NCBI RefSeq assembly: GCF_001664485.1
Contig: NZ_CP013630.1
Location: 2,979,001 to 3,043,000, forward strand
Direction: 5' to 3'
Source: Rhizobium sp. N324
Lineage (GTDB): Bacteria > Pseudomonadota > Alphaproteobacteria > Rhizobiales > Rhizobiaceae
Length of the DNA stretch: 64,000 bases
The translations under genes and the position numbers were made by a program. Under the pieces are notes generated by a model that was not told the DNA's origin, did no database searches, and saw only the letters and a program-made list of their open reading frames with translations. Position 1 is the first letter of the stretch. Each line of letters begins with the position of its first letter. This document shows, in pieces, positions 10,651 to 36,091 of the stretch.

Positions 10651-11169
10651 TCAGCCGTGGCGGCGCTCATAGACGACGTAGCGCGTGGCATAACCGTCCT
10701 TCTCGCCGGCCGGAACCGCGAGTGTTTCCCCTGCCCGCCAGATCTCGGGATCGATCGCAGGGAACGATGCATCTCCATCGAGATCGGCCTCGACATGCGT
10801 GATGCACATCCGATCGGCCAGACCGATCGCCTGGGCATAGACCTGCCCGCCGCCGATAATGCAGATCTCGTCGACACCAGTTTCACGCGCCAACCTGTCG
10901 GCCGCCGTCATCGCCTCCGGCAGCGAATGCGCCATGGAGACATCGGGATGATCTATCGCCGCCTGCCTGGAGATGACGACGTTCGGCCGCCCCGGCAGCG
11001 GCTTTCCGATCGATTCATAGGTCTTGCGGCCCATGACCACAGGCTTGCCCAATGTCAACGCCTTAAAGCGCTTAAGATCGCTCGACAGCCGCCAGGGCAT
11101 GTCGCCGTCGCGGCCGATAATACCGTTTCGGGCAACGGCTGCGATAATGGTCCTGCGGATATCAGCCAT
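10651..11169 (-). CDS. folA: Dihydrofolate reductase
   Basis: A 172-residue enzyme that reduces dihydrofolate to tetrahydrofolate with NADPH. Landmarks are GIIGRDGDMPWRLSSDLKRF (catalytic acid in SSDL), the nucleotide-binding PVVMGRKTYESIG and GRPNVVISR segments, and the late IIGGGQVYAQA motif. The ATG at 11169 lies 13 bases beyond the thyA stop, the usual thyA-folA operon of rhizobia. Because thyA is severed upstream, folA has lost its normal operon promoter. It must now rely on an internal promoter or on readthrough from the recombinase operon. Confidence 0.97.
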   Translation of the reverse strand: MADIRRTIIAAVARNGIIGRDGDMPWRLSSDLKRFKALTLGKPVVMGRKTYESIGKPLPGRPNVVISRQAAIDHPDVSMAHSLPEAMTAADRLARETGVDEICIIGGGQVYAQAIGLADRMCITHVEADLDGDASFPAIDPEIWRAGETLAVPAGEKDGYATRYVVYERRHG

Positions 11170-11182: not shown

Positions 11183-11473
11183 TCAGACGGCGATCGGCGC
11201 CTTGATGCTGGCATCGGCCTCGTAGCCGATCAGCTCGAAATCGTCGAAGGTGAAGCCGAAGATATCCTTCGCATCAGGCTTGATGCGCATGAAGGGCAGC
11301 GGCTTCGGCCGGCGCGCCAGCTGCAGCTTCGCCTGGTCGAAATGGTTGTGATAAAGATGGGCATCGCCAAGCGTATGAACGAAATCGCCGGGCTTCAACC
11401 CCGTCACCTGAGCCACCATCATCGTCAAAAGCGCGTAGGAAGCGATGTTGAACGGCTTTCCGGCATTCCACAT
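11183..11473 (-). pseudogene. thyA: thyA, 3' remnant (last ~90 codons of thymidylate synthase)
   Basis: From [10 protein letters not shown] to the conserved end IKAPIAV the protein matches the C-terminal third of thymidylate synthase, including [19 protein letters not shown] (dUMP-binding). The N-terminal two thirds, with the catalytic cysteine region, are missing. Before the homology the sequence reads MWNAGK in place of the expected ..FLGV. An in-frame TAA lies two codons further upstream (11477-11479). The break therefore lies at about codon 170 of a 264-codon gene and coincides with the end of an integrated element. This fragment alone cannot be an active enzyme. Confidence 0.93.
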
Positions 11474-11504
11474 TTTTTATCACCTTTTTTTATCAATCTA
11501 GGCA
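11440..11504. other. Left junction (att site) of the integrated island in thyA
   Basis: The thyA homology stops near 11460. It is followed by two direct copies of a T-tract box, TTTTTTATCA (11473-11482) and TTTTTTTATCA (11485-11495), which are absent from coding thyA. The shared bases around AGKPFN versus the expected LGVPFN suggest an imperfect core repeat. The partner site is not in the window. The region 11505-11770 holds no gene that I can support. Confidence 0.6.
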
Positions 11505-11770
11505 ACATCTCGAAAAATGAAGGGTGATGCGAACCAGGCCGAAGCAAGCATGAACCATTGCTAGAGCAGCTTTGGACTGGATCTAGGCAATCGCCTTGAA
11601 AAAGGCGACAGACGCGAACAGAGCTCGGGCTTGTAGGCCAGCGCCCTTTGAATAGCAAGATTCTTTGCGCGATACGTTGATTCGTCAGTGGCCGACACAA
11701 TCCAAAACTTCGGCCGATAGGGCAGCTACGCCTGGGGTGCGCATGCGGAGATAGTAGGCGGCGCTACGAC

Positions 11771-13477
11771 TTACACGAGGACGGCAAGCCGAGCTTCAGC
11801 GGACGCTCTGTCTCCTCGATCGATATCCCGAAGTAGCTGCCTCTTCTCTTCCGACTTTGTTAGCCGTCTGTTTGTCGTCTCCAGATGAAGCTCTTTCTGA
11901 CGAATTTCTCCATCGAGTTCCTGCGACTTGAACTCTTTGCCCCGCCTCAAACGACGGTCGAGCTCTCGTCCGATATAAGGTTTCAACCCCTCTGGCGAGA
12001 GGTGGTTGGTATCCTTATGTACGCGGGTGACCAGCGTTTCGATGAAACTCGAGTTCGGGCTCAGTCCTTGTATTGTCGAGCCGTAGGCGTCGAGCGCGAC
12101 GCAAATCTTCTTCGTTACATAAGTTGCACGGAACCGATGGTAGCTGCAGTCAAATATCCCAGCTTTACGGAAACACTCGATGGATATCTTCGTAAGGCTG
12201 TCGCCTTGAAGAACTTCGCCAGTCTTTTGCGAAAGAAAGACAAACTGGCTCGGCGGTCGTCCCTTCTTCAAATTTACCTCGACGATCGCAGCGCGCTCGA
12301 CGTCGACGTAGTCTAGGGTGACATCCAGAAGGAACAGGTCGGGATAGATCGTGTGCCAAGTCCCCCCTTTTGTGAAGATTTTGATACCCCATCTGCTGCC
12401 CCTTGATCGGAGCTCGTCGAGCTGCTCGCGAGTCGGAAGATCAGTGAGGCGAACGCCGAGGACCGATGCTCGCCTCGCGCCAGTGTACTCACCCCATAGA
12501 AACAATAAGGTATCGCGGGTCGCATGACGGTGCGACGCGGCTACACGATGAACATTACGGATTCCCGGTTCGTCGGGCGTGCCGCGATCCGCAGCGTTGC
12601 CACGCTTATCGCGTAGCGTGACAATCGATACCCACTGTCGGATCCGCCGACCGCTTGGCATTACGCCATAGTGCACCCGACCTGTGACAGGTGGTCTCTG
12701 CCTTTGGCTCTGCGCTTGATCTAACTCGACCACACCACGGATACGCCCAGTTTTCTCAGCCCAAGTGAGAAAGCGAAAAATTACGGAAAGATAGTTGTTG
12801 AAGGTCCTTGCCCATATGTTCCGCCCTTCGTCATTCAAGATCGCGGCGTCAACATGTCGAATCGAACTGCGATAGTTGCGAAGGCGGCCGTCGGTGAGAT
12901 GCCTCAGCTGCCATCCCTTCTTTCGGCAGTGCCGAAGAAATCGTCTGAGGATGCTCGCGTCCCTTTTCGCCGTCAGTAAGCTTACCCCGTCCTTCACTAC
13001 GCGATCTCGTAGAAAGTCGGAGGCATCCTCGTCGATCCTATCACCCCACAAAAGGACGGGTATAGTGTAGGTTTCACCGTCGAATTCGAAAGTTACGAAT
13101 TCGATCTCGCCAGTGTCTAGCCGGTCGAGACGAGCTTTCGTTTCCACGAGGTCAATAACATTCGACTGTGGACCGTCTAGCCCCTTCTCTATGTCGGCAA
13201 CCCGGACTTGGTGGCTGACAAAAAGCTCCGACGCCAACTCGTCAAACTCGGCGGTGATCCTCCGGAGCGCAGTGTTCTGTCTAAGCGCCGACCGACCAAC
13301 CCCCAGCAAGTCTGCCAGCCAGCCGCGTTTGACCCCCTTCTCATCTGCTTCGAGTCTGCCGGAGGCTCTGGCAGCATCCAAGGCTTCCTGTCCACGACGA
13401 CCGTGCGCAACCGCTTTGTCCCGATTGGACAAACCACGAAGATCGCCCCAGATATCATCAAGGTTTTCCAGCTTCAT
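11771..13477 (-). CDS. Tyrosine recombinase, last gene of the four-gene module
   Basis: A 568-residue site-specific recombinase. The N-terminal half contains helical DNA-binding-like segments (LLGVGRSALRQ near residue 57). The C-terminal half has the catalytic signature: box I arginine in GARRASVLG (R335/336), a beta-strand lysine region around KGGTWHTIYP (370-379), HxxR in YHRFRATYV (H447, R450) and a candidate nucleophile Y501 in LKPYIGRE. A lysine- and glutamate-rich coiled coil ends the protein. Its start overlaps the preceding gene by 4 bases, showing translational coupling. It is the gene nearest the thyA junction. The recombinase call is strong; its individual role in the trio is unknown. 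Confidence 0.85.
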   Translation of the reverse strand: MKLENLDDIWGDLRGLSNRDKAVAHGRRGQEALDAARASGRLEADEKGVKRGWLADLLGVGRSALRQNTALRRITAEFDELASELFVSHQVRVADIEKGLDGPQSNVIDLVETKARLDRLDTGEIEFVTFEFDGETYTIPVLLWGDRIDEDASDFLRDRVVKDGVSLLTAKRDASILRRFLRHCRKKGWQLRHLTDGRLRNYRSSIRHVDAAILNDEGRNIWARTFNNYLSVIFRFLTWAEKTGRIRGVVELDQAQSQRQRPPVTGRVHYGVMPSGRRIRQWVSIVTLRDKRGNAADRGTPDEPGIRNVHRVAASHRHATRDTLLFLWGEYTGARRASVLGVRLTDLPTREQLDELRSRGSRWGIKIFTKGGTWHTIYPDLFLLDVTLDYVDVERAAIVEVNLKKGRPPSQFVFLSQKTGEVLQGDSLTKISIECFRKAGIFDCSYHRFRATYVTKKICVALDAYGSTIQGLSPNSSFIETLVTRVHKDTNHLSPEGLKPYIGRELDRRLRRGKEFKSQELDGEIRQKELHLETTNRRLTKSEEKRQLLRDIDRGDRASAEARLAVLV

Positions 13478-14097
13478 TCGACTAACCGCAGATATGGCGT
13501 TTTGCCCCGTCGCTTTCTTCCTGGCCTGTCCTGGCGCGGGCTAGACCGCGGCTCAGCTCGAGCGTTGTGTCCAGGGGCCTCTTCGGTCAGCGCCCGTAGT
13601 CGCTTCAGTTCCGCTACTGCGCTGTCGCGTTCGTCTTCGACTTTGCGCAACCGCTCGATCTCGCGGCTCATTGCCTTGGCGTCCTCGGCCTCGAGCCGCG
13701 CCTTCGACCATTGAGCGAGATAATCGCGCCTTGCGATCCGTTCTTGCATCTCCTCAGGCGTCAACACAGGCGTCGTTTTCGGCTTCTCTGTCCGCTGTTC
13801 CTGGGTAGGTCGCCGTTTGTTTATCGACTCTAAAAGCCTTTTGATCTCAGAGACCAGCCCTCCGCATGTGGGATGCGTCCTCGTGAGAATGTTTGTGTTG
13901 GTCACTGGAAACACACCGACCTGCGGCATCAGAAAATCTCGCGTGCCATCCAGCGTCTTAGGAAACGTCGTCCAGTCCTCGACCGTCGCCTTGCCTTCGT
14001 CGACCGCCGTGAGATAATCTCGCAACCGCTTCACACGTTCTTCGTTAGTGGGGAGCTTCTTTCGAGCACGGTTCTCTTTATCGCTCATTTGAGACAT
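13474..14097 (-). CDS. Small coiled-coil protein of the recombinase module
   Basis: A 207-residue, highly charged protein with no enzymatic motif. Residues ~120-170 (QWSKARLEAEDAKAMSREI onward) form a predicted coiled coil, and the C-terminus is basic (RPGRKRRGK), suggesting DNA or protein binding. It overlaps the upstream recombinase by 20 bases and the downstream one by 4 bases, so it is an integral part of the operon. By position and size it could be the small accessory protein of GInt elements, but I cannot confirm homology from the sequence. Confidence 0.75.
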   Translation of the reverse strand: MSQMSDKENRARKKLPTNEERVKRLRDYLTAVDEGKATVEDWTTFPKTLDGTRDFLMPQVGVFPVTNTNILTRTHPTCGGLVSEIKRLLESINKRRPTQEQRTEKPKTTPVLTPEEMQERIARRDYLAQWSKARLEAEDAKAMSREIERLRKVEDERDSAVAELKRLRALTEEAPGHNARAEPRSSPRQDRPGRKRRGKTPYLRLVE

Positions 14098-16105
14098 CCT
14101 CCAATTGCAATGCCGGTCGGGGCTCGAGCTTTCCTCGGAACGCTAGAAACTTCATGGTCCGCTCGTCCTGAAGTTCTTGAAACAATGTTCCCTCGAGTAG
14201 CGCCGGGACCGGCTCGCCGCGTAACTTGATAACCTCGTCCATCACTGCCCTTGTCTTGCGGGCAGACAAGCAGAATGGACAACCAGACCCACAGACCTCC
14301 GGTGCTGCATGGGTAAGGTCAGGTCCTTGCCCTTCTTTGCCGCTCAGTCGGCGGCAGAACTCCCTCGGCGCTCTTCCCGAATAGTTCCAATGAAAACAAA
14401 TACCCCAGTCTTGCATGATGACCATAACACCATGATTTTTGAACAACTGGGCGACGGCGGACGCCACGTTTCTCATCGTTACGACTTTGAGGTTGTCTTT
14501 GATGACCGCTTTGATCTTTTCGCCGAGCCTTAGGATCGTGAGCGCGGGCGTCCCGCCATAATTCTCTTGTCCTTCAAGAACGCTTTCGACGACGTTCTGG
14601 ACGTACCGCCACTCCTCTTCGTCCCAAAGGGCTGCAACATCCGGGTCAAGCGCGGTGTATCGACGGGTGACGGATATATTTTCCTGGTCGAGCATGTTAG
14701 CCACGCCCTCGATGGAACTCTCGTATTTCCAATAGTACAAGGTAGGCGAAAACCGTCGGAACTGACGAAGTTGCCAGTGCCAGCGCTCCCATTCCGAAGT
14801 TTTGCTTCGGAATTTTGGTAACTTGTAAACGGACGCAAGGTGGTTGGCTCCGCTGTTGGTAAAGTTAACCAACTCTGCCCGGCGATCGTGCACATTCGAG
14901 AACTGAAACATCCGCGGAGAGGCGTCTGGAGGAAGGTACGTCATCACCGCTTCAAGCTGCTGCACAGTGAAAACGACAGCTTCGACTGCCGGCATCAAGC
15001 GGACGTCCGGACGCCTTTTTTTCAGCCTTGGCACCTTGATCCACCATTGCCCCGACGGATCTTTGTACAAGCAATCTTTTTCGAGCATGCGGATTTGCGC
15101 GGGACGCACCGGCAGGTGTGCGAGAAGAAGCCCGAAGCTATTCTTCAGCAACAATCTCATTTTCGCGTTGATTGCTCCTGCGAGTTCGCGACTGACGGAT
15201 GCGCTGGCAGCTAGACGCTCCTTATATTCCTTAACTACCGAAGGACCGTCGATAGCCACGGCGCGCCCAAAGTGGTGAGCAAACTCGAATACCAGACGCG
15301 GGGGAGGAATGGGCGTGTGTTGAATTTGATCAGTCTTGCGGTCAGCCTCCTCCTCGGGAGCAACGGAGATGGGGTCGACCTCAATGCTGCGTGCATCCAT
15401 ATGGAAGCGCAGTGCATACATATGGTCGCAGACAATGAAGGAGCGATCATAAGCGCTGCGAGTTGGTTTCCTAGTTGGCGACGCTTTGGGGACCGCCTCT
15501 TCATTTGCCCACCTGCGGGTGTGTTGCAAAAACGTCTGTTTTACAGATTTGTTTCTCCAGCCATCTTTCAAGTTCAGCTCTCTGCAAATCAACCTCAGGC
15601 TTGCATGGCCATCTACATCAAGCCAATTAGCCGGCAACTCGGCGAGCTGAGCGTATTCGCTCAACTTCGCGTCCAGATAAGCTGCGAATCCGAGCAGCCC
15701 CTCCGCCCCTTCGATGGCCTTCCGCAATACTGCATGGAGGTCCCTGGGCAGTAGACGCGAAAGGTCATAGATCCCGATTCGAGCGACAGCCGACAGAATG
15801 TGGAGCATGTTGTCGATCCATTTTTTGTGGCTCAATGGCCCCAGATCGGCAATGTCGGACTGCCGGACCCAAAAGGCGGCTTCCTTCGCGGTGCGGTAAA
15901 GGCTGGGCGTGTCTTTCAGCTTGCGATTCGGCGTGAGCATGTAGTCGAAATCGGCGAAGACTGCTTTTCCCGTGGCCCGGTCTACGCCCAAAGGCCATTG
16001 GTCCATCGAGTACGGGGTTTCGCCAAGCCATTCGGCCTTTCGTTCCGCGTCGCGCGGCCCGTTGGGCGACAGAATTGAACTCCCGGAACCGGATATCTTG
16101 TCCAT
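14078..16105 (-). CDS. Large tyrosine recombinase with C-terminal cysteine cluster
   Basis: A 675-residue protein. Recombinase signatures are VRPAQIRML (R334), the lysine-rich PRLKKRRPD (357-366), a box II motif HWQLRQFRR (H443, R447) and the nucleophile in TRRYTALDP (Y483). These fit the R-K-H-R-Y pattern of tyrosine recombinases. Unusually, about 190 residues follow the nucleophile and carry a CGSGCPFC cluster (C605, C609, C612) that could bind zinc. It is separated by 3 bases from the upstream 1,094-residue gene. Function: strand exchange for island integration or excision, by inference. Confidence 0.85.
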   Translation of the reverse strand: MDKISGSGSSILSPNGPRDAERKAEWLGETPYSMDQWPLGVDRATGKAVFADFDYMLTPNRKLKDTPSLYRTAKEAAFWVRQSDIADLGPLSHKKWIDNMLHILSAVARIGIYDLSRLLPRDLHAVLRKAIEGAEGLLGFAAYLDAKLSEYAQLAELPANWLDVDGHASLRLICRELNLKDGWRNKSVKQTFLQHTRRWANEEAVPKASPTRKPTRSAYDRSFIVCDHMYALRFHMDARSIEVDPISVAPEEEADRKTDQIQHTPIPPPRLVFEFAHHFGRAVAIDGPSVVKEYKERLAASASVSRELAGAINAKMRLLLKNSFGLLLAHLPVRPAQIRMLEKDCLYKDPSGQWWIKVPRLKKRRPDVRLMPAVEAVVFTVQQLEAVMTYLPPDASPRMFQFSNVHDRRAELVNFTNSGANHLASVYKLPKFRSKTSEWERWHWQLRQFRRFSPTLYYWKYESSIEGVANMLDQENISVTRRYTALDPDVAALWDEEEWRYVQNVVESVLEGQENYGGTPALTILRLGEKIKAVIKDNLKVVTMRNVASAVAQLFKNHGVMVIMQDWGICFHWNYSGRAPREFCRRLSGKEGQGPDLTHAAPEVCGSGCPFCLSARKTRAVMDEVIKLRGEPVPALLEGTLFQELQDERTMKFLAFRGKLEPRPALQLEDVSNER

Positions 16106-16108
16106 GAG

Positions 16109-19100
16109 TCACCATGGCCTGAGAGCGGGAACGGAAGGATCGGCCCAGATTTGTTTCCGGAGGATCGTGGCTTCGTCCCAGATGTCGATGTTTTGCCCGC
16201 GCGTCATGAGCTCTTCGATGCTCTCGATCAACTTGAGTCTTGGCAGCCAAACTTCCATCCATCGCTCTGGTCGAGTTCGAGAGAACTCGTCTTCGGCGCT
16301 CCTCAGGCCGATCCCCCAGGCTTGCACCAGCGCCGTTTGGACCGGGTCAGCTACGAACATCAATTGTGGACAATTGCGCTCGCAGTCTTGCTGGGTGCAC
16401 AAGGTGCCGGCCGAACCTGGCCTGCCAAGCCTGTCGCCGCACAGGGTGCCGAAACCCGTACGCCTCATCCTCCCGCTTCGACGGCGCTCGGCCAGAGCTT
16501 CGTCGGAAATCCCCAAGGCGTTGGCCAATTCGTTATCGTCATGGACGATGATCGTCTGTGCGTCCGTTAGGTACGACCGTGTCACTTTATCGCGGATAAG
16601 AGTCTCCGGAGGTCGGGAATGGTAGTCCCTCCAAGATACGTCCTCGGTGTGTTGACCGAGCGCACGGCTGACGTTGATGATACCCTTGTCCAACAAACCT
16701 TGAAGCAGCAAGCGAGAGGTTCGGAACATAGATGGGACGATGTTCATTCCGGCGAGTATCGGTTTCGTCTGACAAATCTCTCGGATGTGGTCGCGTGCAG
16801 CCCATTCGGAAAGAGCTCTAATGCGCCCATGGTGGCACATGAGGAAGAGACGATTAGACCACGATGAGGAGCCGCGGAGATGGTGGGTCGCCGCCTTCAT
16901 CCAGTCGAGCATCTGGATCTCGCGACCGTTCGCCGGAAGGTCGATGTGGATCACTTTGGGCGCGCCACCCTTCCTCTTGACGCCTACAATCTCGGCTATT
17001 TGATCGTCTACCGACCGGGTGAAATCGGTCGGAAGCTCGCGACCTACCGCGGTGTTCGGCCCCTTAGAGGCGAGACAAGCCAGCACCGCGGCAGACGAAC
17101 AATCGACGTGCGGCACGAGGTATGCCTGCAACTGCGACCGGGGGCCATAAAGCTTGGCCAATTGCTTCGCGACGCGCCGGTTCTTCCAGTCAGATGCGAT
17201 CGATCCGTTGTATTTCTTCATGATAAAAAGGTATCGGGCCAGTCCGGTTTCCGAGAACTCCTCCGGGAGTATAGTATCCAGATGTGGCGAGGCGTGCCCC
17301 CTCAAGAATATGTCTTCCAACCGTTCGTCTTCCCCCTCCTGACGTTCGATATTCGCAATCAGCCGCTGTCCGTAATCGAAATGGTCGCGCCACTTGCAAA
17401 AGCTCTCCCAGCCTGCCTCGGATGCCGCGTCCAAGCGCTGGCGAAGCACGACTTTTACAGCTTCGTCCGGATCGTTTCTCAGACTTTCATCAGCCTGTAC
17501 CTGGCGAGCGATAGCCGACACGAACTCCGGTACTTCTTTCGCCCCCAGACCGACGTCGACGCTGAGTACGACGGACTCCAAAAGCTCGATATAGCGTTCG
17601 ACGGAGTTCGTTGTGACGGGGGCTGCGCTTTTTCCCAACTTCGGCGCTTCGACGACGGTTCGCAATTGGGTCGTCTCTACCCTTGCAAGCTTTTTGAGTG
17701 GCCGCACACCGGACGGCATGAGATCGCATGATTTCAGCAACTTGATCAGATGGTTGGCCAAGCCCACGAATGAGTTGGTCATGACACGCGTTTTTTCCGC
17801 CACCGACGTTGCGCGCAATGACGCCAGTAGCCTTGTCCAAGCGTATTCGCTGCCTCTCGCTAGCGAGCCATCCGACTGGTACAGGCTATGTGCGATCGGT
17901 GACGCAGTCTCGAATACAGAGAGGGCGACGCCATAAACCTCGAACGCCCGCCTGAACGACATTTCGGCTAGCGTCTCAAGGAAAGTCTCGCTTAAAGAAA
18001 TAGATACGGCTTCCGGAAACCCGAGGGCTGTGATTCGCGCGAATTCGAACGGCGTACCCTCATGGACAAAGTTGCCCGGCTTCGAAAGAAACTCCCCCAT
18101 TATCCTCTTGTCTGCAGTCTCCAGGATGGTCTTGAGGGCGGTCCTGCCAAGAGAGGATCCGGCGATACCGGCCGCAGCAGCAGCCGCTCTCCTGCTGATT
18201 TTGCCGCGAAAGAGCTTTACGCACTCGCCGTTTACGTAGTCCCGCAGGCGGGCCTCTTCTTCCGCGTTCGGCACTTCTCTCTCTGCGGTCCGACGCGAGT
18301 TCGGCAACCCTTGAATGCCTTTGGCCTTCTTACCGTACTCGAGGAGCAGTTCTGATATCTCCTTCGACGTTTTGATGTCTCTCAAGCTCACCCCAAACGC
18401 GGAGGCGAGCTGCTGTCGGCAAACTTCTCCGTTGACGACCTGGAGCGTCCGGTTGGCAAGGCTTTCCTTCAACCACTCCCGTACCTCCTCCGTCTTCGTG
18501 CCGATGGTGCCCCGAAGTTTGCTGAGCTCCACATCGAACTTGGCTAGGATATCCTTCTGAGCCCTCACCGACGAGACTGCGCAGTTCAGCTCGCCCGCGT
18601 AGTGTCGCCGAGAAACCTGGTTTTTGTTCTTCATCGAAACGAGCGTACCAGAGTTAAGGTCTCGAAGAAGTCGCTCGGAAAGGCGCGCTCGCAATCGAAC
18701 CGTCTCCTCCGTCTTTATGCGGTTTTCCTCATAAGAACGGCCCGCATTTGCAAGGTGTTGCCGAACCTTGAGAGGATCGGGCTTGTAACCGTCAACAGAG
18801 ATGCGGTCCGACCAGCGCTGAAGCGGTGCTTCAAGCTCTGGCATCCTTTTGTGCGTGGGGATGCCGAACGCATTGTAAACCTGCCGCCTACTCGCTTTTC
18901 CCCGAAAGACGTCCAGACTGCGCTCGGCGAACCGTTGGGAAAACCACGCCTCGATCTCGTCCGCCCTTTGTGCAAGAGGTGGAGATTGTGCGGGTTGAGA
19001 CAGATGGCGCTCGAGACTCGTGAACACCAGACCATATCGATCGGACGACCTGCGCGCACTGCGAAACAAACACAGGTATCGGCTGCGAAGGATGCCTCCG

Positions 19101-19393
19101 TTTGCGTTTCGCGCCAGCTTTCCATCCGCCATATCGCAGTGAAGGAACGCCGCTAGGACAACCCGCTCAGACCAAAAGCGGTCTTGCAGGTTGGATTGGC
19201 TTGGATCAATGACCTGGTGATCCTCTAGCAGCTTGCGAAGGTCGCCCGGTTCGAGACCCAATAGACTGGAGTAATGATCCCGGTCCACGACTGGCGCAAT
19301 CGCAGGGATGCTTCCGTCAAGGTAATTCCGACAGAATCTGGCGACGGCTTTCTCGGCGCGTGATGCGTCTTCGGACCGCGTGTGCGATGTCAT
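16109..19393 (-). CDS. Very large divergent recombinase-like protein, first gene of the module
   Basis: About 1,094 residues from ATG 19393, which has a GAGGAG ribosome site; a GTG at 19414 is less likely. Most of the protein is unrecognised. In the last ~200 residues, FRTSRLLLQG and, about 20 residues later, LGQHTEDVSWRDY look like eroded box II and tyrosine regions of tyrosine recombinases (compare HxxR and LGHss..TxxxY). A cysteine cluster (LCTQQDCERNCPQ) follows, echoing the one in the next gene. It is the promoter-proximal gene of the operon. Possibly a structural or regulatory recombinase subunit; catalytic competence is doubtful. Confidence 0.7.
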   Translation of the reverse strand: MTSHTRSEDASRAEKAVARFCRNYLDGSIPAIAPVVDRDHYSSLLGLEPGDLRKLLEDHQVIDPSQSNLQDRFWSERVVLAAFLHCDMADGKLARNANGGILRSRYLCLFRSARRSSDRYGLVFTSLERHLSQPAQSPPLAQRADEIEAWFSQRFAERSLDVFRGKASRRQVYNAFGIPTHKRMPELEAPLQRWSDRISVDGYKPDPLKVRQHLANAGRSYEENRIKTEETVRLRARLSERLLRDLNSGTLVSMKNKNQVSRRHYAGELNCAVSSVRAQKDILAKFDVELSKLRGTIGTKTEEVREWLKESLANRTLQVVNGEVCRQQLASAFGVSLRDIKTSKEISELLLEYGKKAKGIQGLPNSRRTAEREVPNAEEEARLRDYVNGECVKLFRGKISRRAAAAAAGIAGSSLGRTALKTILETADKRIMGEFLSKPGNFVHEGTPFEFARITALGFPEAVSISLSETFLETLAEMSFRRAFEVYGVALSVFETASPIAHSLYQSDGSLARGSEYAWTRLLASLRATSVAEKTRVMTNSFVGLANHLIKLLKSCDLMPSGVRPLKKLARVETTQLRTVVEAPKLGKSAAPVTTNSVERYIELLESVVLSVDVGLGAKEVPEFVSAIARQVQADESLRNDPDEAVKVVLRQRLDAASEAGWESFCKWRDHFDYGQRLIANIERQEGEDERLEDIFLRGHASPHLDTILPEEFSETGLARYLFIMKKYNGSIASDWKNRRVAKQLAKLYGPRSQLQAYLVPHVDCSSAAVLACLASKGPNTAVGRELPTDFTRSVDDQIAEIVGVKRKGGAPKVIHIDLPANGREIQMLDWMKAATHHLRGSSSWSNRLFLMCHHGRIRALSEWAARDHIREICQTKPILAGMNIVPSMFRTSRLLLQGLLDKGIINVSRALGQHTEDVSWRDYHSRPPETLIRDKVTRSYLTDAQTIIVHDDNELANALGISDEALAERRRSGRMRRTGFGTLCGDRLGRPGSAGTLCTQQDCERNCPQLMFVADPVQTALVQAWGIGLRSAEDEFSRTRPERWMEVWLPRLKLIESIEELMTRGQNIDIWDEATILRKQIWADPSVPALRPW

Positions 19394-19657
19394 TCGAACA
19401 AGTCTCCTCAACACGCGCGCTCCATCGCTCCCCCGCCACCTTCAACGGCGACGACGGTCGGTTCGGCTGCGTTTCTTAGGACGTGCGGGCGATCTCAGCC
19501 CACGCCGATAGGTGAAACAACTGGAATTGCGGACGGATTCGTGGTACCTGTTCTAACGTTTCGGCTCCATTTCAGGCCGAAGCTCTGCAGCAGGGGCCGA
19601 TATCGATTAAGCGTTCAAGGACCATAACTGACACCAGGCTATCCGGAATCCGAGCGC

Positions 19658-20182
19658 ATGAAAAGCCCCCTCCCCGAAATATCAGTTAAGGACTGCCCAA
19701 CGATGGAAACTGAGCTTGCTGTTCCAACCCTGGATATCGATTCGGATGGGCTGGACGAGTTGCACGCTCGCGTAAGTGCAGATATCGCCGCCCTAGAGCA
19801 TTCGATGGCAGCCTGGGGACAGGCGATCACCCAACGCAGAAAGATGCTCGCGCTTATCGATGAAATGAGGGGGCGGACGAACCCTCACGCTGAGAGCGTC
19901 TGGATCGGTACGAACAGGCCGACGCGCCACCGCCGCAAATCCGACGGCGAGGCAAGTGCTAGCGAAAAGGTTAGAAAAGCCGCCATAAGAGTGCTCAAAC
20001 AAGCACAAAGGCCGCTCGGCAGGACTGAATTGCTTCAGTTCATCACCGCAATGGGTGTCGCGGTGCCTGGTAAAGACCCGGCAAAATTCGTCGGTCGCGT
20101 ACTTTGGCGAGACAGTCAGTTCGTCAACGAGGGCGATGGATATAAACTTGTCGACCCGTCCATCCCGCTCCCCGAAAACTAG
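19658..20182 (+). CDS. Small protein with C-terminal winged-helix (HARE-HTH-like) domain
   Basis: A 174-residue protein. Residues ~25-60 are helical, possibly a coiled coil (ALEHSMAAWGQAITQRRKML). A basic linker (RPTRHRRKSDGE) leads to a C-terminal winged-helix-like domain (KAAIRVLKQAQRPLGRTELL ... GRVLWRDSQFVNEGDGYKL). This pattern, a helix followed by LVDxxx wing strands, resembles HARE-HTH modules found in nucleases and transcription factors. It is the first cargo gene, divergent from the recombinase operon, and could regulate it. The alternative ATG at 19703 cannot be excluded. The 260 bases upstream contain nothing else I can identify. Confidence 0.6.
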   Translation: MKSPLPEISVKDCPTMETELAVPTLDIDSDGLDELHARVSADIAALEHSMAAWGQAITQRRKMLALIDEMRGRTNPHAESVWIGTNRPTRHRRKSDGEASASEKVRKAAIRVLKQAQRPLGRTELLQFITAMGVAVPGKDPAKFVGRVLWRDSQFVNEGDGYKLVDPSIPLPEN

Positions 20183-20314
20183 CGTCATCCATCTGCGGGA
20201 GTCGAACCCACCTTCGGAAAGAAAGGCGACGCATGGGCGTTCAAGCCCGCGCGTGCGATCATCCCGTCCCCTACGGGGACGGCAGTCGTCGGTGGCCTGC
20301 TCTGCTCAGCAATA

Positions 20315-20443
20315 AAAGACCCCGAGGTACCATTCGTATTTTTAAATGAAGACTCCACTTCTCGCACGGAGATGCCGAATTAAAGGCACCATATTTAATT
20401 GGAGTCTTCCTTTTGGCATCTGCAGAGTGCCATTGGGGTCTTT
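20315..20443. repeat. Nested and crossing inverted repeats in a 600-base gene-free stretch
   Basis: Three complementary pairs occur: AAAGACCCC (20315-20323) with GGGGTCTTT (20435-20443); GAAGACTCC (20348-20356) with GGAGTCTTC (20401-20409); and GATGCC (20371-20376) with GGCATC (20415-20420). The second and third pairs interleave in pseudoknot fashion inside the first. A separate 8 bp hairpin (CCGTCCCC/GGGGACGG) lies at 20264-20282. The surrounding 20183-20787 has no supported gene. It could be a structured RNA, a recombination site or a miniature inverted-repeat element. Confidence 0.45.
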
Positions 20444-20787
20444 GTTTAGCTGTGGCGAAATCGAACGTTTGTGATACCCCGGTTGACGGGACCGCAACGA
20501 CGACCGGTGAAATGGCGTTGCGTGAAGTCTTGCTTTACGGGCGACTAAGAGGCCGCGCCCCCCTGGGGAAGCACCGAGCGGCCAATTCGTAGACGCCGAT
20601 TGTCATGATGATAGGCAGACGAATCCGTCGGTGCCAATGCCTCGGAACACGCCATTCCCGTGTTTTTTGTATTCGCGACCAGCTCAGGTCACATTTTTTG
20701 CGCGTCAGCGAGCATCATCAATCGTGCACGAGGTGGGATTATTCACTTCAAAGCGAATTCGGCCAGCGCCTCCTCGATCTCGGTCAG

Positions 20788-21438
20788 TTAACCGAAATCC
20801 ATCTCCAGCACGCGCGCAAACGTTGCCTTAGCGGAATCCGTGAAATGGACGACCGCTGCTCGGTCCTGGAGCTTCTCAAGGAGTGTATCGACTTGAAACG
20901 AGCGGATTTTCCCATCAGCGACGACTGCGGGGGTTCCGGCCTCTATCTCATCCCTGGTCGGCCACGGATGGTCATACCACACGTGGTTGTACCAATTCGA
21001 ATTCTTGGGAAACGTCTCTACGCACTTCCATGCCATAAGCGACAAAGCCGACTGTGCATCCGCCACATCTCCGAGGTCGGCAATCGAGGGCTCGATGCTG
21101 CCGCCCCAAAATTCCTCATGTCCGCTGTCAGTTCCGAGTTTCACCTCGAGGAGCCAATCGCCTTTCTGGGGATGGTTGGATGCGTCGCCGCCCTTCGTAA
21201 ACAGGAAGGACGTGTTGTAGATCGGCATGAAATCCCAGGTCCACCGTCCGAATGGCGACGCTCCCCTCCCAGGCGGCATCGCGCACAATAAATTCGCCCA
21301 TTGATAGAAGGTCCGGTCTGGGAATTGGTCGATGACCAGACTGATCGTGTCGAGCGTTCGTCGTTGATATGCGTAGAGAAGCCGGTAGGCGGCGCGGACG
21401 TCCTCAAGCGCTTGTGTCAGATTATTTTCGCCAGGCAT
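20788..21438 (-). CDS. Unknown protein, second gene of a two-gene operon
   Basis: A 216-residue protein that I do not recognise. It is predicted cytoplasmic: no signal peptide or membrane segment, and rich in aromatic residues (WTWDFMPIYNTSFLF, NSNWYNHVWYDHPWPT). It contains a strand-like GDWLLEVKLGTDSG that echoes the EAKLGTG of its partner, hinting at a related nuclease-like fold, but the usual catalytic triad is not clear. The start overlaps the end of the upstream gene by 22 bases, implying translational coupling and a shared function. In island cargo such pairs are often restriction-like or defence modules; here that is inference only. Confidence 0.6.
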   Translation of the reverse strand: MPGENNLTQALEDVRAAYRLLYAYQRRTLDTISLVIDQFPDRTFYQWANLLCAMPPGRGASPFGRWTWDFMPIYNTSFLFTKGGDASNHPQKGDWLLEVKLGTDSGHEEFWGGSIEPSIADLGDVADAQSALSLMAWKCVETFPKNSNWYNHVWYDHPWPTRDEIEAGTPAVVADGKIRSFQVDTLLEKLQDRAAVVHFTDSAKATFARVLEMDFG

Positions 21439-22187
21439 TGGTTCCCCTGAAAATCGTATGCGGAAATCTCGTCGATCGCCGACTGGGTGAAGCGTCGCGC
21501 CGAATGCAAATCGCGGAGAAGGTCGACGTGGCGGTAGTTGGCGAGCGCGAGCGCGCCTATGACGTCATTCAGCACGCGCCGTTCGCTTGACCTCGCGGAG
21601 TTTTCCAGCTGCTGTTGGACAGCATCGGCTATTTCTCCCCAAGTCGCCGCAACAACGTTGAGCGGTGTTCCCGTCGACGTAAGATCAGAGACAATTCTCT
21701 CCACGGTAAGGGCCTTATTGGTGCCCAGCCCACCGAGCGCCAGCAGGTAAACACTTGTGGCAGCGTCACCTTCCTCTGTCCTCAATTTTTCGAATGCGGT
21801 CCACTGACGTCGCCATTGCTCCGCATATTGCGACGCGCCGGTTCCGAGCTTCGCCTCGACGATGAAGTCGATCCGCACTGTTGGATCGCCGACTTCAAAA
21901 CGAAGGATAACGTCGGGTTCCACGGTATAGCCGCGATCATCCGCTTCGGCGAAGCGTGGCCAGAAGTCGGCGCTAATGAGTTCCACAACCTTGTAGTCAG
22001 GCAGCGTGCTTCCAATCGCACGACGGAGTATCTGCCAAAGAACTGGCCCCTCAAGATATGTCAGTCGACCAAAGGCAGACGCAGTCAGAAGGTCTTCCGA
22101 GGCGCGAAAAACCTCGCGCCAACTCGATCCAGGTTCGATGTCAGTTCCAATTGTTCCTGCCTTGCCACTGGTCAGGGCTATCAGCAT
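21417..22187 (-). CDS. Unknown protein with PD-(D/E)XK nuclease-like motif
   Basis: About 256 residues from ATG 22187, preceded by TGGAG about 10 bases upstream; a longer in-frame extension to 22349 is very arginine-rich and probably non-coding. The central segment has EPDVILRFEVG followed by IDFIVEAKLGTGASQY. This fits the D...(E)xK core of PD-(D/E)XK nucleases, with an acidic residue on one strand and E-x-K on the next. The remainder is helical. It is coupled to the following gene by a 22-base overlap. A restriction or anti-mobile-element role is plausible but unproven. It might also be a non-enzymatic DNA-binding relative. Confidence 0.6.
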   Translation of the reverse strand: MLIALTSGKAGTIGTDIEPGSSWREVFRASEDLLTASAFGRLTYLEGPVLWQILRRAIGSTLPDYKVVELISADFWPRFAEADDRGYTVEPDVILRFEVGDPTVRIDFIVEAKLGTGASQYAEQWRRQWTAFEKLRTEEGDAATSVYLLALGGLGTNKALTVERIVSDLTSTGTPLNVVAATWGEIADAVQQQLENSARSSERRVLNDVIGALALANYRHVDLLRDLHSARRFTQSAIDEISAYDFQGNQCLAKII

Positions 22188-22491
22188 CCGCAGAACTCCA
22201 GCAATTTTACAGTCCGTGACCGCGTGGCCGCGTGGGCGTGGGCGTGGGCGGGCTTCAGTACCACGACCCCCTGAGTCGCGAAACAGAACGCGCTTGGGAG
22301 GATGCTTTCGCCGACGGTGAAACGTCTCATACCCATGCTTTGCCGTCATGACCCGACATGATCACTTTAATTGTGTGGTAGGGTAGTTTCCCCTTGCTCT
22401 CTTCGGTTCGTCGTTAACCGCCCTCGCCGATTTTCGGTTTTCAGGACTTTGGCATTGGCTCATGACGAGCCCGGCGACGCGACGGGGAACC

Positions 22492-23592
22492 ATGAGCAGC
22501 ATCATTACCAACAACGGCGCGACAACGGCCCTTGCGACCTTGCGCGCGATCGGTGCGCGGCTTACCGACACCTCGCAGCAGATGTCGTCGGGCTTGAGGG
22601 TCAAGACGGCCGCCGACAATGCGGCTTACTGGTCCATCTCCACCTCGATGCGATCGGACGTGAAGGCCATGAATGTCGTCAATGACAGCGTGGGCCTGGC
22701 TCAGGGTGTGGTGGATACCGCCTACGCGGGGATGGAAAGTGTACTCGAGAGTTTCGTTGAAATCAGGAACCTCGTGATCACCGCGAGCGACATGCCGCAG
22801 CCGGGTATGAAGGACGCGGTCAAGCCGACATTCAGCCTCGATCCGGAATACGCGAAATCCGACGTCTCCAAGATCGATCAACGGATACAGACCCTCCAGG
22901 ACCAGGCGAAAGCCGCCATGTTGTCCGCTTCGTTCTCGGGTGTGAACCTGCTCTATCACGGCAAGAACGAAGACGAAAAGGCGAGCGCGCAGGTGTTCAA
23001 CTTCACCATCGGCTACGCCGACGGCAAGGTTCAGACATTGAACGTCAAGGCCATGGACACGCTGCTTCTCAACGACGACTTCGGTAGCTTTCCGACGACC
23101 TTTCCGGGAGAGTTCAACCCGGAGCAAACGCTGTTCGACGGCAGCGACACCATCAACGCTCCTGGGTCGTTCACGCCCTTGGGGGTGTATTGGTACAACA
23201 TCCCGGTTTCCAACCCGACGACGGGCGATCCGGAGGCCTATCCTGTCGAGCCGACCTATGTTCTACAGGCGCTCGAAAACCACGTCGTACGCTTCGGATC
23301 GGATAGACAGGGACTCTACAGCAACTTCGTGGCGAACCTGGACCAGAAGATTCAGGCGATCACTTCGAAAATGGCGTATGTCGGCACGGTGCAGAAATCG
23401 CTGGAGATGTACGACGAGATCAACAACAAGATGATCGATTCCGCGACCAGCGGCATCGGCCGCCTCGTGGACGCCGACATGGAAACGACGGCAAGCAAGC
23501 TGCGCGCGCTGCAAACCCAACAGCAGCTCGCCACGCAGAGCTTGGGGATCGCCAATGCAGCGCCAGGAAACCTGATGCAGTTGTTCAGCTAA
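22492..23592 (+). CDS. Flagellin
   Basis: About 366 residues with the conserved flagellin ends. The N-terminus has SSIITNNGATTALATLR and LSSGLRV-like TSQQMSSGLRVKTAADNAAYWSI; the C-terminus has ASKLRALQTQQQLATQSLGIAN and a short LMQLFS end. The variable central domain is short. ATG 22492 is chosen because the protein then begins MSSIITN, as in rhizobial flagellins. It is isolated from any flagellar cluster and sits in island cargo. Its last 4 bases overlap a convergent serine recombinase gene. It may encode an alternative filament subunit exported by the chromosomal flagellar machinery. Confidence 0.93.
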   Translation: MSSIITNNGATTALATLRAIGARLTDTSQQMSSGLRVKTAADNAAYWSISTSMRSDVKAMNVVNDSVGLAQGVVDTAYAGMESVLESFVEIRNLVITASDMPQPGMKDAVKPTFSLDPEYAKSDVSKIDQRIQTLQDQAKAAMLSASFSGVNLLYHGKNEDEKASAQVFNFTIGYADGKVQTLNVKAMDTLLLNDDFGSFPTTFPGEFNPEQTLFDGSDTINAPGSFTPLGVYWYNIPVSNPTTGDPEAYPVEPTYVLQALENHVVRFGSDRQGLYSNFVANLDQKIQAITSKMAYVGTVQKSLEMYDEINNKMIDSATSGIGRLVDADMETTASKLRALQTQQQLATQSLGIANAAPGNLMQLFS

Positions 23593-24146
23593 TCACGCCG
23601 TCCTATAAGTCTGGCTAGTGTTCTCGGGTGCACCCGGTATCGTCGGGCAACCTCCTGAGCATCCTCCCCGTCTACGACGACCGCATTATAGGCCAGCGTG
23701 CACTCGTCTTCCGTTAGAGAAGGTCGCCGGCCGAGCCGTTGGCCTCGAGCACGCGCGGCTTCAAGCCCCGCCCGGGTTCGCTCCCTTACAAGCGAGCGCT
23801 CGAATTCGGCCATGGCAGCCATCAAATGGAATACGAGCCGTCCGCTTGCGGAGCTGGTATCTATGTTTTCTGTCAGACTGAGGAATTCCACTTTTCGTTT
23901 CGTAAGGCGTTCGATGATTCCAATCAGGTCTTGAATTGATCGGCCAAGGCGATCGAGTCTCCAGACCACTAGGGTATCGCCCGGCTTCAGTGACCGAAGT
24001 GCCGCTGCCAAACCAGGTCTCCTTAATTTTGCTCCCGAGATGCCCTGATCTTCGAAAATCCGGTCGCAAACCTCCCGCAGAGCCGCCATCTGGAGGTCGA
24101 GGCGCTGATCGTGTGTTGAGACCCGGGCGTACCCCACCTTTGCCAT
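23589..24146 (-). CDS. Serine recombinase (resolvase/invertase, TnpR/Pin type)
   Basis: A 185-residue protein with the catalytic serine in YARVSTHDQ (S10), the DRLGRS motif, the RERTRAGLEAARARGQRLGRR hinge and a C-terminal Hin-type helix-turn-helix (AQEVARRYRVHPRTLARLI). Length and layout are complete. It could be a transposon resolvase or a DNA invertase. Its 3' end overlaps the flagellin gene, an arrangement reminiscent of flagellar phase-variation modules. I could not find paired inversion sites around the flagellin promoter by eye. The upstream region contains repeated GACAAAA boxes (near 24253 and 24279) that might be part of a res site. Confidence 0.92.
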   Translation of the reverse strand: MAKVGYARVSTHDQRLDLQMAALREVCDRIFEDQGISGAKLRRPGLAAALRSLKPGDTLVVWRLDRLGRSIQDLIGIIERLTKRKVEFLSLTENIDTSSASGRLVFHLMAAMAEFERSLVRERTRAGLEAARARGQRLGRRPSLTEDECTLAYNAVVVDGEDAQEVARRYRVHPRTLARLIGRRD

Positions 24147-24335
24147 GTTTTATTCCATCCTCCGCGCCGCTTGACAGAATGCAGCGTTTTCGACGTGCGA
24201 GTGCGCGGGGTTGCATGATTTCAATCCGGGAATGGTTGCAATGACTTAGGCAAGTGACAAAACATTTCCCGAGCGATGACAAAAACGCTCGTATCTAGTC
24301 GCCGGCGGTAACGAATTACGCTCTGTCCTCCACCG

Positions 24336-24965
24336 ATGAAGCTGGCGACTTTCGGTGATCTCGCCCAGCAGCTCATTGACGTCTGGATTTCCCGCAATGA
24401 CGTCGAGCATTCTACCGTGCTATCGAACCTGATTAGCGATCGGCTTTCCGCGAATATGGTGCTTGCCATCATCGAAATGACTAACGGCAGCCCTACCGAG
24501 TTTGAAGTGAATCTCGTCCGCGACTACAGCGTTCCAACCAGCTACACAGACGTCCCTGAAGTCTTGAAATCGCGACTCCCAATGCTTCCTGCAGGACGTC
24601 TTCACCCTTCCATCCTGAAGGCGATCACCGGCCGCCGGCCTTCGCTCATCTCTGAAACCGTCCGCCACGACAACATGCAAACCAACTTCGAGATGCTGGC
24701 GCTTCCTCGCAAAGCCGCGAAGCCGAGAGGCGACTGGTGCCTCGTCCTCGGTGTCGTGAATTATATCCTGATGTCTTCGGCAATACCGAAAGACCTCGAC
24801 GACGTCGATTTGGCCATCCTCCAATTGCTTCGGGAAGGACTGCAGATGCGAGAGATCGGCCACCGGGTTCAGCTCTCTCCACGCACGGTCGAGCATCGTG
24901 TGGAGCGTCTCAAGGCGATGACCGGAGCAAAAACGCTCCATGATCTAGTCGCGCGCTCCCTGTAA
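24336..24965 (+). CDS. LuxR-family transcriptional regulator
   Basis: A 209-residue protein. The C-terminal ~60 residues form a LuxR/FixJ helix-turn-helix (DVDLAILQLLREGLQMREIG, then VQLSPRTVEHRVERLKAMTG). The N-terminal ~145 residues do not match a receiver or autoinducer-binding domain that I recognise and may sense an unknown signal. It is divergent from the serine recombinase and followed by an unrelated secreted protein. It might control the neighbouring flagellin, but there is no direct evidence. Confidence 0.82.
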   Translation: MKLATFGDLAQQLIDVWISRNDVEHSTVLSNLISDRLSANMVLAIIEMTNGSPTEFEVNLVRDYSVPTSYTDVPEVLKSRLPMLPAGRLHPSILKAITGRRPSLISETVRHDNMQTNFEMLALPRKAAKPRGDWCLVLGVVNYILMSSAIPKDLDDVDLAILQLLREGLQMREIGHRVQLSPRTVEHRVERLKAMTGAKTLHDLVARSL

Positions 24966-25161
24966 AAATCGGCATCGTTAAACGGTCGCTAACGCTAACC
25001 GCTGTTCTCGAAGTCTCGATTTCTCTGGGAGGGTGGAATCCCCCTCGGAAATTGCCGAAATCACAATTCCGACGCGGCAACTTCCAGTGGCTGCTCCTGT
25101 TGGAGAAGCTCATTGTCCGGTCGTTGTCCGGCAATGACCATCCGAGGTATCCGAGGGATTC

Positions 25162-25917
25162 ATGAGAGCCGCTATCCTACATCTCGTCACCGCGCTCACG
25201 CTGAGCGCGGCGTCCGCGTCTACTTCGCTGGCAGCCGAACTTGACATCAATGGAATTGCACTTGGGACGAGTGCCGACCAAGTCATCGCGAGATTCCAGG
25301 AGGCCCGCCCGGAAGCTCAGTACGAGTTCGTGCGCTGGAAACTCCCGGAAGGCAGCGAATGGGTCGCCAACGGCAGGACCCTGTACAACGACCTCGCAAA
25401 TCCGGACGATATGGAACACGAGCGTATGCAATTCGCGTTCACGGGCCTCGGGTCTGGCAACAAACTGTTTGCGGCCAGCCGCGAGTTGAAGTTCAGGCCG
25501 TCGCAACGACCGACGACTGAGTCGGTCTATGCGGCGGCCGTCCAGAAATTCGGGGAGCCTTCGGTAACCGGGAAGAGCACCACCGGCATCTGGGCAGCAT
25601 GGAAATTCAGTTCAGCGGACGCAAAGGCCGAAAAACTCGAGTCACCGATGGCCTGCATTGGTACGAGCGATTTCCCCGTAGGCCTTGACGAATTCACCGC
25701 AAAGAGAATGAAGCAGTCCGCGAGCATGTGCGGCATCTATATCGACGTTGACGTCCGGGGAGACGAGACGGGCCTAGCGACCGAACTCAACATGAAGATG
25801 ACGGACCAGTTGCATCTCGAGCAGGATTTCGATGCGGACAATGCCGACGCCCGAAAACGGATCGATGCGGCAAAAGCCAAGAACGTTGGAAATGCGGCAC
25901 CCCCTCCAAAACTTTAG
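25162..25917 (+). CDS. Secreted protein of unknown function
   Basis: A 251-residue protein with a typical Sec signal peptide (residues 1-24, ending ASTSLAAE). The mature part begins with a pattern (LDINGIALGTSADQVIARF) seen in small periplasmic proteins that place a short IxLGxS segment after the signal. Two conserved-looking cysteines (in PMACIGTSD and SMCGIYI) may form a disulphide. The tail is charged and Ala/Lys-rich. ATG 25162 has a GAGGG ribosome site. No family assigned; probably periplasmic. Confidence 0.75.
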   Translation: MRAAILHLVTALTLSAASASTSLAAELDINGIALGTSADQVIARFQEARPEAQYEFVRWKLPEGSEWVANGRTLYNDLANPDDMEHERMQFAFTGLGSGNKLFAASRELKFRPSQRPTTESVYAAAVQKFGEPSVTGKSTTGIWAAWKFSSADAKAEKLESPMACIGTSDFPVGLDEFTAKRMKQSASMCGIYIDVDVRGDETGLATELNMKMTDQLHLEQDFDADNADARKRIDAAKAKNVGNAAPPPKL

Positions 25918-26024
25918 CTATATCGGAGCGGCAAGAACTGGGCAGGGCTACCAAATGAAATGGTAGCCCTGCCCAAATTATGAAGCAAATCTCCTGGTTT
26001 GGAGTGCCACCCCGCAACAGTGAA

Positions 26025-26157
26025 TTACTCGTCGAGGCGGTTTTCAACTTTTTTTCTGCTGTTACCGACGGCCTTTGGCCTCGTAGCGGACTTCGTGATC
26101 CTGGCCTGCGGCCACACGGGCGCGGTCCTGGTTGCGGCTACGCGTGCTCTTCGACAT
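26025..26157 (-). pseudogene. Frameshifted DUF3606-like small stress protein
   Basis: ATG 26157 starts MSKSTRSRNQDRARV...GQDHEVRYEAKGRR and stops at 26062. In the next frame the sequence continues as KAVGNSRKKVENRLDE and stops at 26025. Together these match the two conserved ends of small rhizobial DUF3606-type proteins (EVRYEAKK... and AVKKVGNSRKKVE), with the middle missing. I read it as an internal deletion with frameshift. A promoter resembling the general-stress consensus lies upstream. The rest of 25918-26381 contains no other gene that I can support. Confidence 0.5.
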
Positions 26158-26188
26158 TCTATTACCTCCGACTGGTTGCCCTGCTTCT

Positions 26189-26214
26189 AACCCAGTTGGA
26201 TTCCACAAAGTTCC
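26189..26214 (-). promoter_or_regulatory. Candidate RpoE2/EcfG-type promoter
   Basis: On the minus strand GGAAC (26214-26210) is followed after 18 bases by GTT (26191-26189), matching the rhizobial general-stress pattern GGAAC-N18/19-TT. It lies about 30 bases upstream of the DUF3606-like start. Confidence 0.4.
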
Positions 26215-26456
26215 GGCGGCACCGTCGGCTCAATTGAATTTCAAATTAAATGCGGGCACGTTGGTGAGAAGCGGCCGTGAGATTGCCCGGAGTTCCCTGC
26301 TAGAGCCCGTCTGGGCAACACGAGATGACGGTCGACGCTGCGATCGCCGCCGCGATCGGATGTTGATCTTCGGGATTGTGAGTTAACCCCACGGATCATA
26401 TATTCGGCACAGGCACACAAAAGCTAAAGGAGGTTGCCTATGACACCGCGGGACGC

Positions 26457-27293: not shown

Positions 27294-27384
27294 TCAAAAT
27301 ACGTGAGGGCTCAACAGAGCCCTCTCCTTCAAAGCCTTAGGCAACGGCACGACACCCTTTGGCTGCCGTGCTCGTCGAAGCCTC

Positions 27385-28482: not shown

Positions 28483-28516
28483 GGGGAATTCCTTGGGAGA
28501 AAGTGGAATGCGCGCC

Positions 28517-29272: not shown

Positions 29273-29371
29273 TTCGTCTCTCCTTTGTTAGCGGGCTGGT
29301 GTCCAGCGCCGATGAGTAAGAATTAAATCCAATCCGCGCGCTTGATAATCGGGCCGTATTTCGTTTTAATA

Positions 29372-29386
29372 GTTCCATGGTGGAAC
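29372..29386. promoter_or_regulatory. Palindrome overlapping the LysR start codon
   Basis: GTTCCA-TGG-TGGAAC is a perfect 6+6 inverted repeat spanning the regulator's ATG (29377). It lies in the 104-base divergent region shared with the SDR gene and is a candidate autoregulatory operator. Confidence 0.4.
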
Positions 29387-36089: not shown

Positions 36090-36091
36090 CG

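Follow-up and report, generated by a model that had tools for sequence, protein, structure and literature searches.

A putative multi-recombinase element splits thyA and carries a complete second thyA in Rhizobium sp. N324 and related genomes

The thymidylate synthase gene thyA of Rhizobium sp. N324 (genome G000) is divided into two parts by a large inserted element. Very probably, this element is site-specific, bears a recombinase gene set in the order D-C-B-A, cuts thyA at a conserved core and compensates for the damage with a complete thyA of its own. The stretch of DNA analysed here, called the window, comprises 64,000 nucleotides (G000:C1:2979001-3043000) and contains the right end of the element (Table 1).

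The split thyA gene and its replacement

The frame at window positions 11183-11473 (minus strand) encodes 96 amino acids and matches positions 174-266 of the 266 positions of PF00303 with an E value of 6.6e-35. As described in the initial annotation, this frame begins at an ATG two codons past an in-frame stop and is preceded by foreign DNA. The annotation had placed the join at position 11,474. This point was found to be that of the element-borne ATG. On the gene strand the native thyA DNA starts at AACATC (11449 downward), and upstream of it follow a 6-bp spacer (11450-11455) and then the element (from 11456 upward). A PF00303 search of the whole genome located the missing 5' two thirds (PF00303 1-178), for which a search had been proposed, beyond the window at G000:C1:3073275-3073799 (minus strand). 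The two parts are 82.8 kb apart on the same strand of one 4.64-Mb contig. Thus, the original claim that an integrated island cuts thyA and leaves its last third alone next to folA is correct, with the 5' part at the far side of the island. The G+C content of 3-kb blocks was 0.63-0.66 in window 1-9000 versus 0.55-0.63 in island blocks. Four examined genomes of the same genus (G029, G128, G194 and G250) each have one ThyA, which is uninterrupted and has the core LGVPFN.

Table 1. Features at the right end of the element in the window
Feature	Position	Strand	Remarks
folA (DHFR)	10651..11169	-	start 13 nt behind thyA stop; alternative start 11214
native thyA 3' third (ThyA C-terminal remnant)	11183..11449	-	PF00303 174-266, from junction reading
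right spacer	11450..11455	-	CCGTTC on gene strand (junction alignment); left junction CCCTTC
element	11456..64000, continuing past the window to G000:C1:3073274	.	82,819 bp without spacers
element-borne ATG	11471..11473	-	in frame with thyA 3' remnant, after AAGGTGAT
gene A	11771..13477	-	568 aa, tyrosine recombinase; PHROG integrase E 2.2e-5
gene B	13474..14097	-	207 aa, small protein between C and A; position kept in 9/9 elements
gene C	14078..16105	-	675 aa, putative tyrosine recombinase, motif-based; NCBIfam integrase match weak, E 0.023
gene D	16109..19414	-	1101 aa, putative large tyrosine recombinase, motif-based

The abruptness of the join would by itself also fit an assembly error, considered at the outset, or an old thyA duplicate. 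Since the halves lie on one contig and nine other genomes are cut at the same place, an assembly error is extremely unlikely, and the duplicate is to be judged alike: the same junction was found in ten genomes, in seven of which both halves share a contig, while in G525, G1113 and G1166 they lie on two.

The PF00303 search of G000 yielded three matches, all on the minus strand, namely the 5' part, the 3' part and a full-length ThyA (PF00303 1-266). The latter is encoded at C1:3072234-3073127 (minus strand), outside the window and directly behind the 5' fragment. A search of the same genome for ThyX (PF02511) gave no match. The initial annotation had expected thymine auxotrophy unless the element restored the 3' end, as e14 does for icd, or a second thyA or ThyX came to the rescue. 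One of these ways out is indeed present, the complete second thyA, and auxotrophy is therefore not expected. The ThyX route found no support in the genome, and the e14/icd model had to be abandoned: unlike in that case the target frame is not restored, but the 5' fragment reads 18 codons into the element to a stop and is followed by a whole, diverged gene. From this stop it is another 87 nt to the conserved start of the replacement protein. The replacement protein of G000 (gene at L005:12231-13175, minus strand) has 314 amino acids and is 47-48% identical to native ThyA. It contains the blocks PPCH (the active-site block) and QRSCD...GNPFN, both of which we take to be catalytic.

We infer a working replacement enzyme and a mobile island. 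The element would thus make good the cut by means of a whole thyA from a different lineage, located just within its left end. From this observed place the replacement would be expressed by the native thyA promoter, reading through the 5' fragment. Because the replacement is the only whole thyA, a cell that lost the element in any way except clean excision should become auxotrophic for thymine, and this would aid retention. The second thyA of the island probably keeps the cell alive and binds it to the island.

The D-C-B-A genes, element ends and distribution

Using A, 297 genomes of the family were searched, which gave eight matches at E <= 0.001; strong matches besides its own were G014 and G202. 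The C profile likewise gave eight matches in 397 genomes of the order, with G493 and G525 as the strong ones besides its own, and among 385 genomes of the class only its own and one partial match were obtained. Additionally, the replacement ThyA profile was run on all 148 genomes of the genus, 15 of which were then searched with PF00303. Nine genomes contain a split thyA, the replacement and D, C, B and A (G000, G014, G202, G493, G525, G1113, G1082, G1166 and G1198), and all nine elements cut thyA at the same codon. In a tenth genome, G1090, the two fragments and the replacement occupy a stretch of about 6 kb, in which no recombinase match was found.

The replacement is located directly behind the 5' fragment in eight of the nine elements and in G1090. 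The exception is G493, where it lies at the opposite end, 35 kb from the 5' fragment. D-C-B-A directly follows the replacement in eight of nine elements, with cargo in between in G000, and the operon reaches an element end only in G000 and G493. This arrangement suggests a core element thyA-D-C-B-A which cargo would have entered at three different places. In G493 the interrupted gene is itself of the replacement type (64-71% identical to replacement ThyA), and elements have therefore struck more than once. The G493 loci L134 and L136 also illustrate that a replacement-type gene is not safe from being cut. About 5.5 kb separate this thyA from folA, and the two are on opposite strands.

Gene A has R335, K370, H447, R450, H492 and Y501 invariant in all nine elements. 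The corresponding sets are R334, K362, R450 and Y483 for gene C and R792, R898, H922 and Y931 for gene D (both 9/9), and on these motifs C and D are putative tyrosine recombinases. No NCBIfam model scored above its cut-off. Family searches gave no supporting match for D as a recombinase and no family above chance for B. Profile comparison of A with C and D by hhalign gave probabilities of 0.4 and 7.9, which lend no support. The AlphaFold models of C and D, built on five-sequence alignments, were poor (mean pLDDT 43.8 and 57.9), and a Foldseek search of the D model against the PDB returned 53 matches, none with E <= 0.001, so that the fold gives no support either. The A profile gave six matches up to E 1 among PDB sequences, the best an unlikely one (0.0033) and the next XerC-like (0.031). 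Among plasmid records A matched one, over 14% of its length, and D none.

The replacement proteins are 66-77% identical to that of G000, while the recombinases are conserved far less (A 22-32%, C 22-25%, D 23-25%). A protein so conserved beside such divergent recombinases points to an association that is old and has been kept. The operon of G1113 is 73-81% identical to that of G014, a member of another genus, but only distantly similar to the operon of G000, which belongs to the same genus as G1113. This argues for horizontal spread.

Weak relatives of the recombinases apparently behave differently. Among these, five of the eight A matches and five of the eight C matches come from genomes with a single full-length ThyA, and the recombinases of these ten genomes must therefore have other targets or roles; in one of the ten, G092, the ThyA is of the replacement type. 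Distant C relatives of 807-822 codons were observed at L035, L036 and L145 (G603, G616 and G1029). Since G603 and G616 have one intact ThyA each, these relatives probably use other targets.

Read on the gene strand, the left junction is GGCGTG-N6-TTTTCC and the right one GGAAAA-N6-AACATC, apart from small variations. The ends form imperfect inverted repeats flanking a 6-bp spacer in all ten junction pairs, for example GATGTCGGAAAA and TTTTCCGACATC in G014. Left and right spacers are unequal in every pair (Table 2), although four pairs are near-equal (one base apart in G000, G014 and G1082, two in G1090), a difference which drift could explain. The right spacer encodes PF in nine of ten cases (AF in G493), the left one in five. 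This coding pattern suggests that the right spacer is the target's own and the left one imported. The imperfect match at the junction, which the initial annotation had noticed and attributed to a diverged core repeat, is thereby explained: the match is indeed imperfect, but it is better read as a differing 6-bp spacer plus an inverted-repeat arm, because the element's own end sits there.

Table 2. Spacers at the two ends, gene strand
Genome	Left	Right
G000	CCCTTC	CCGTTC
G014	CCCTTC	CCGTTC
G202	AAGGAC	CCGTTC
G493	CCGTTT	GCCTTC
G525	CCGAGG	CCGTTC
G1113	TGTTTC	CCGTTC
G1090	CCATTC	CCGTTT
G1082	CCGTTC	CCATTC
G1166	CTGAGG	CCGTTC
G1198	CCCTAT	CCTTTC

We propose that the D-C-B-A recombinases would recognise the conserved thyA stretch GGCGTG-CCNTTC-AACATC, which codes for LGVPFN, and recombine there across six spacer base pairs for which no match is required, thereby cutting thyA. 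Alternatively, an element of the usual kind, a prophage or an ICE with a standard integrase, might have hit thyA by chance, with a phage-type thyA as mere cargo. Thymidylate synthases often occur in phages (matches in 3757 of 50,697 phage records), but the nearest phage ThyA is just 49.7% identical, the link recurs in nine of nine elements whose recombinases are 22-32% identical, and the identical core expected from a standard integrase disagrees with spacers that differ at the two ends. We therefore consider a chance hit quite unlikely and retain the site-specific element.

All ten elements provide an in-frame ATG ahead of the 3' remnant with no intervening stop. In the other two frames an ATG precedes a stop in none and in five of ten. 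Under a Markov null the probability of the in-frame ATG was 0.16-0.39 per element and 3.7e-6 jointly, the joint value being subject to the relatedness of the right ends: a clear relationship joins those of G014, G202, G1113 and G1090, and a relationship also seems to exist within the pairs G1166/G1198 and G493/G525, so that there were fewer than ten events. A candidate folA ATG lies 12-13 nt past the thyA stop in six of ten genomes (G000, G1113, G1090, G1082, G1166 and G1198) and overlaps or nearly abuts this stop in G014 and G525; the scripted search at the ten right ends gave no candidate in G202 and G493. A simple scan of 11100-11800, run without a rhizobial promoter model, found no outward promoter. 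The ATG and the spacing suggest a device of the element by which ribosomes would be kept running on into folA, in G000 13 nt further on, through translational coupling.

Replacement-type thyA in the genus

The replacement type was detected in 54 of 148 genus genomes at E <= 4.3e-157. Six of the 54 have four matches, two have two, and in 46 it is the sole match, two of the latter being drafts only 73% and 82% complete. A PF00303 check of six of the 46 confirmed a single ThyA in each. Of the nine replacement-only loci examined, seven are from genus members, one is from R. mongolense and one from a Hyphomicrobiales MAG. All nine retain a recognisable native upstream leader, and folA lay within about 3 kb in seven; in G1145 and G1143 no folA was found within roughly 9 kb at the locus.

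Intermediates between the complete elements and these loci form a decay series (G1090, G1068, G1127). In G1068 most of the 5' piece is lost and about 26 native codons are left of it, together with the leader, the replacement and the 3' remnant. In G1127 leader and replacement share one contig, and a frame-broken 3' remnant in two frames lies beside folA on another. These loci also bear on the idea that the two thyA fragments make up a working split enzyme to which the full copy is incidental. Such an enzyme could use the in-frame ATG of the 3' fragment, found in 10/10, but it would have to tolerate a left spacer coding for residues other than PF in half of the elements, a 3' piece in two frames in G1127 and the loss of most of the 5' piece in G1068. 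Moreover, in all 12 genomes with split or partial remnants the replacement matches PF00303 over its full length. A split enzyme is thus very improbable, and the replacement remains the preferred source of activity.

The 52 rows of a ThyA tree included 15 of the 46 sole carriers and a further three. In this tree the replacement type forms one group (99/95) that adjoins ThyA of Erythrobacteraceae and other sphingomonads and is distant from the native rhizobial proteins. Elements are interleaved with sole carriers, and by the starred branches the sole carriers need at least five changes. We read several takeovers from this tree, which does not give their direction. The replacement-type ThyA could accordingly have been resident first in some rhizobial lineages and captured by elements later, as the interleaving and the 46 of 148 genomes with the replacement type as the only match would allow. 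Against this order of events stand the native leader kept at 9/9 examined sole-carrier loci, the native thyA remnants flanking the replacement in G1068 and G1127 and the grouping with Erythrobacteraceae instead of native rhizobial ThyA. We regard a resident origin as rather unlikely. The element's gene probably displaced native thyA in the genus, and the intermediates together with the tree suggest that decaying elements would leave the replacement behind as the resident thyA.

The target core is altered in 36 of 39 replacement-type genes (LG[N/A] versus LG[V/L/I]), by which the left half-site GGCGTG is changed. The residue after LG is N in 22, A in 14, L in two and C in one of these 39 genes, compared with V in 69, L in 14, I in five and C in two of 90 other ThyA. 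This recoding may shield the element's own thyA copy from the element. The replacement of G1082 retains LGLPFN. On the Rhizobium leguminosarum plasmid pRlX5 (L220:11851-13634) a thyA with the core LGAPFN is immediately followed by a folA-like frame. Its ThyA is 60.8% identical to the replacement ThyA and falls outside the replacement family; no D-C-B-A operon match was found within 25 kb of it. This thyA represents a possible source lineage of the replacement gene. Because of the cores in G1082 and pRlX5 the immunity idea is weak, and the core change may predate the element.

Tentatively, and with more doubt than confidence, we extend these observations to an undescribed element family for which thyA would be both docking site and hostage. 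Its recoded thyA copy would be uncuttable by the element, folA would be kept translated, and loss would be punished by thymineless death, a form of addiction through a housekeeping gene; by decay such elements would have displaced the native gene in roughly one third of the genus genomes sampled (54/148 carry the type). Excision may then leave the wrong spacer behind, and five of the ten left spacers would alter the PF residues. If the proposed displacement by elements is right, mobile elements and not mutation or plain gene transfer would explain the foreign thymidylate synthase at the native locus in many species of the genus. Hostage-taking as a means of retention would be directly testable, because thymine auxotrophy is an easy read-out.

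Known systems and island cargo

Among the papers listed in literature searches, no title or abstract described a thyA-targeting element. The closest precedent is the tmk island of Pseudomonas putida KT2440. Its target, which it splits, is essential for dTTP synthesis, and the island encodes a dNMPK, PP_1964, which was shown to be essential and to take over from the split gene; four orthologues, including two tyrosine recombinases, flank the islands at the tmk site (PMC10653934). Both are large islands that split a near-vital gene of dTTP synthesis and carry a gene for the same activity. They differ in target and host (tmk in Gammaproteobacteria) and in the gene carried, which is a distantly related kinase in the tmk island and a whole homologue of the target in the rhizobial elements.

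Tn552-II, a Tn554-type transposon, carries tgl, which resembles its target and which its authors suggest may rescue target function, and it imports its spacer from the donor site (PMC12486829, in part). A target-like gene and a putatively imported spacer are common features. Unlike the rhizobial elements, Tn552-II has TnpABC only, a 7-bp spacer, a length of 9 kb and Staphylococcus as host, and its target is a YolD-like gene or a plasmid, without a known vital role in that part of the source (PMC12486829). The rhizobial spacer behaviour fits the donor-carried spacer of the Tn554 family.

SEs (strand-biased circularizing integrative elements) have a four-gene recombination module and inverted repeats around a 6-bp spacer; the target's 6 bp end up at one end and the imported 6 bp at the other (PMC10214605, in part). 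The rhizobial elements share the imperfect inverted repeats, the 6-bp spacer (10/10), the pattern of target and imported spacers and the presence of a four-gene module. SEs differ by intA-tfp-intB-srap at the left end and by their restriction to Gammaproteobacteria in the consulted part of that paper, which reports none in its Alphaproteobacteria set and describes no target-gene replacement there (PMC10214605).

GInts encode three integrase-like proteins plus one small protein on islands of up to at least 76 kb, with imperfect repeats and an outward promoter that keeps the target expressed, as far as the main text goes (PMC5385486). Three tyrosine-recombinase-type proteins (C and D by motif only) with one small protein were likewise found in 9/9 rhizobial elements. 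In contrast to ginA-B-C-D, where the small gene is last and the operon delimits one end, B is third of four. The gene targets named in the main text are ssb and an ABC transporter gene, thyA being absent (PMC5385486).

By target, carriage of a whole target homologue and gene order, the rhizobial family appears to be set apart from all of these, and it would extend multi-recombinase elements with non-matching 6-bp spacers to Alphaproteobacteria. That a large element can use a near-vital gene as landing site has precedents in tmk of P. putida and, as suggested, in Tn552-II. What the thyA case would add is an association that is old and has recurred, with nine or more carriers and recognisable stages of decay.

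The picture of the cargo is based on selected island frames that were scanned. Two adjacent Ku genes (PF02735, window 46989-48718), a DnaE-type polymerase (39560-43033), an ImuB-like protein (42820-44343) and two SRAP proteins (33705-34478 and 52875-53591) were observed, a predicted DNA-repair cargo. Defence-like cargo was seen at window 57980-62443, L004:1998-15529 and L005:3517-11252. Matches to defence-related models in the scanned frames were CARF6 (E 1e-198), PDC-S73, MkoC, type IV restriction and IetA-like. The defence-like cargo also includes an ORC-CDC6-like ATPase, a metallophosphatase, Mrr-type nucleases, a QueC-like protein, nSTAND and helicase proteins, a SIR2-like protein and an AAA/M41 protein with an IetA-like score. 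Finally, a flagellin gene (window 22462-23592) and a resolvase-type recombinase gene (23589-24146) are present inside the island.
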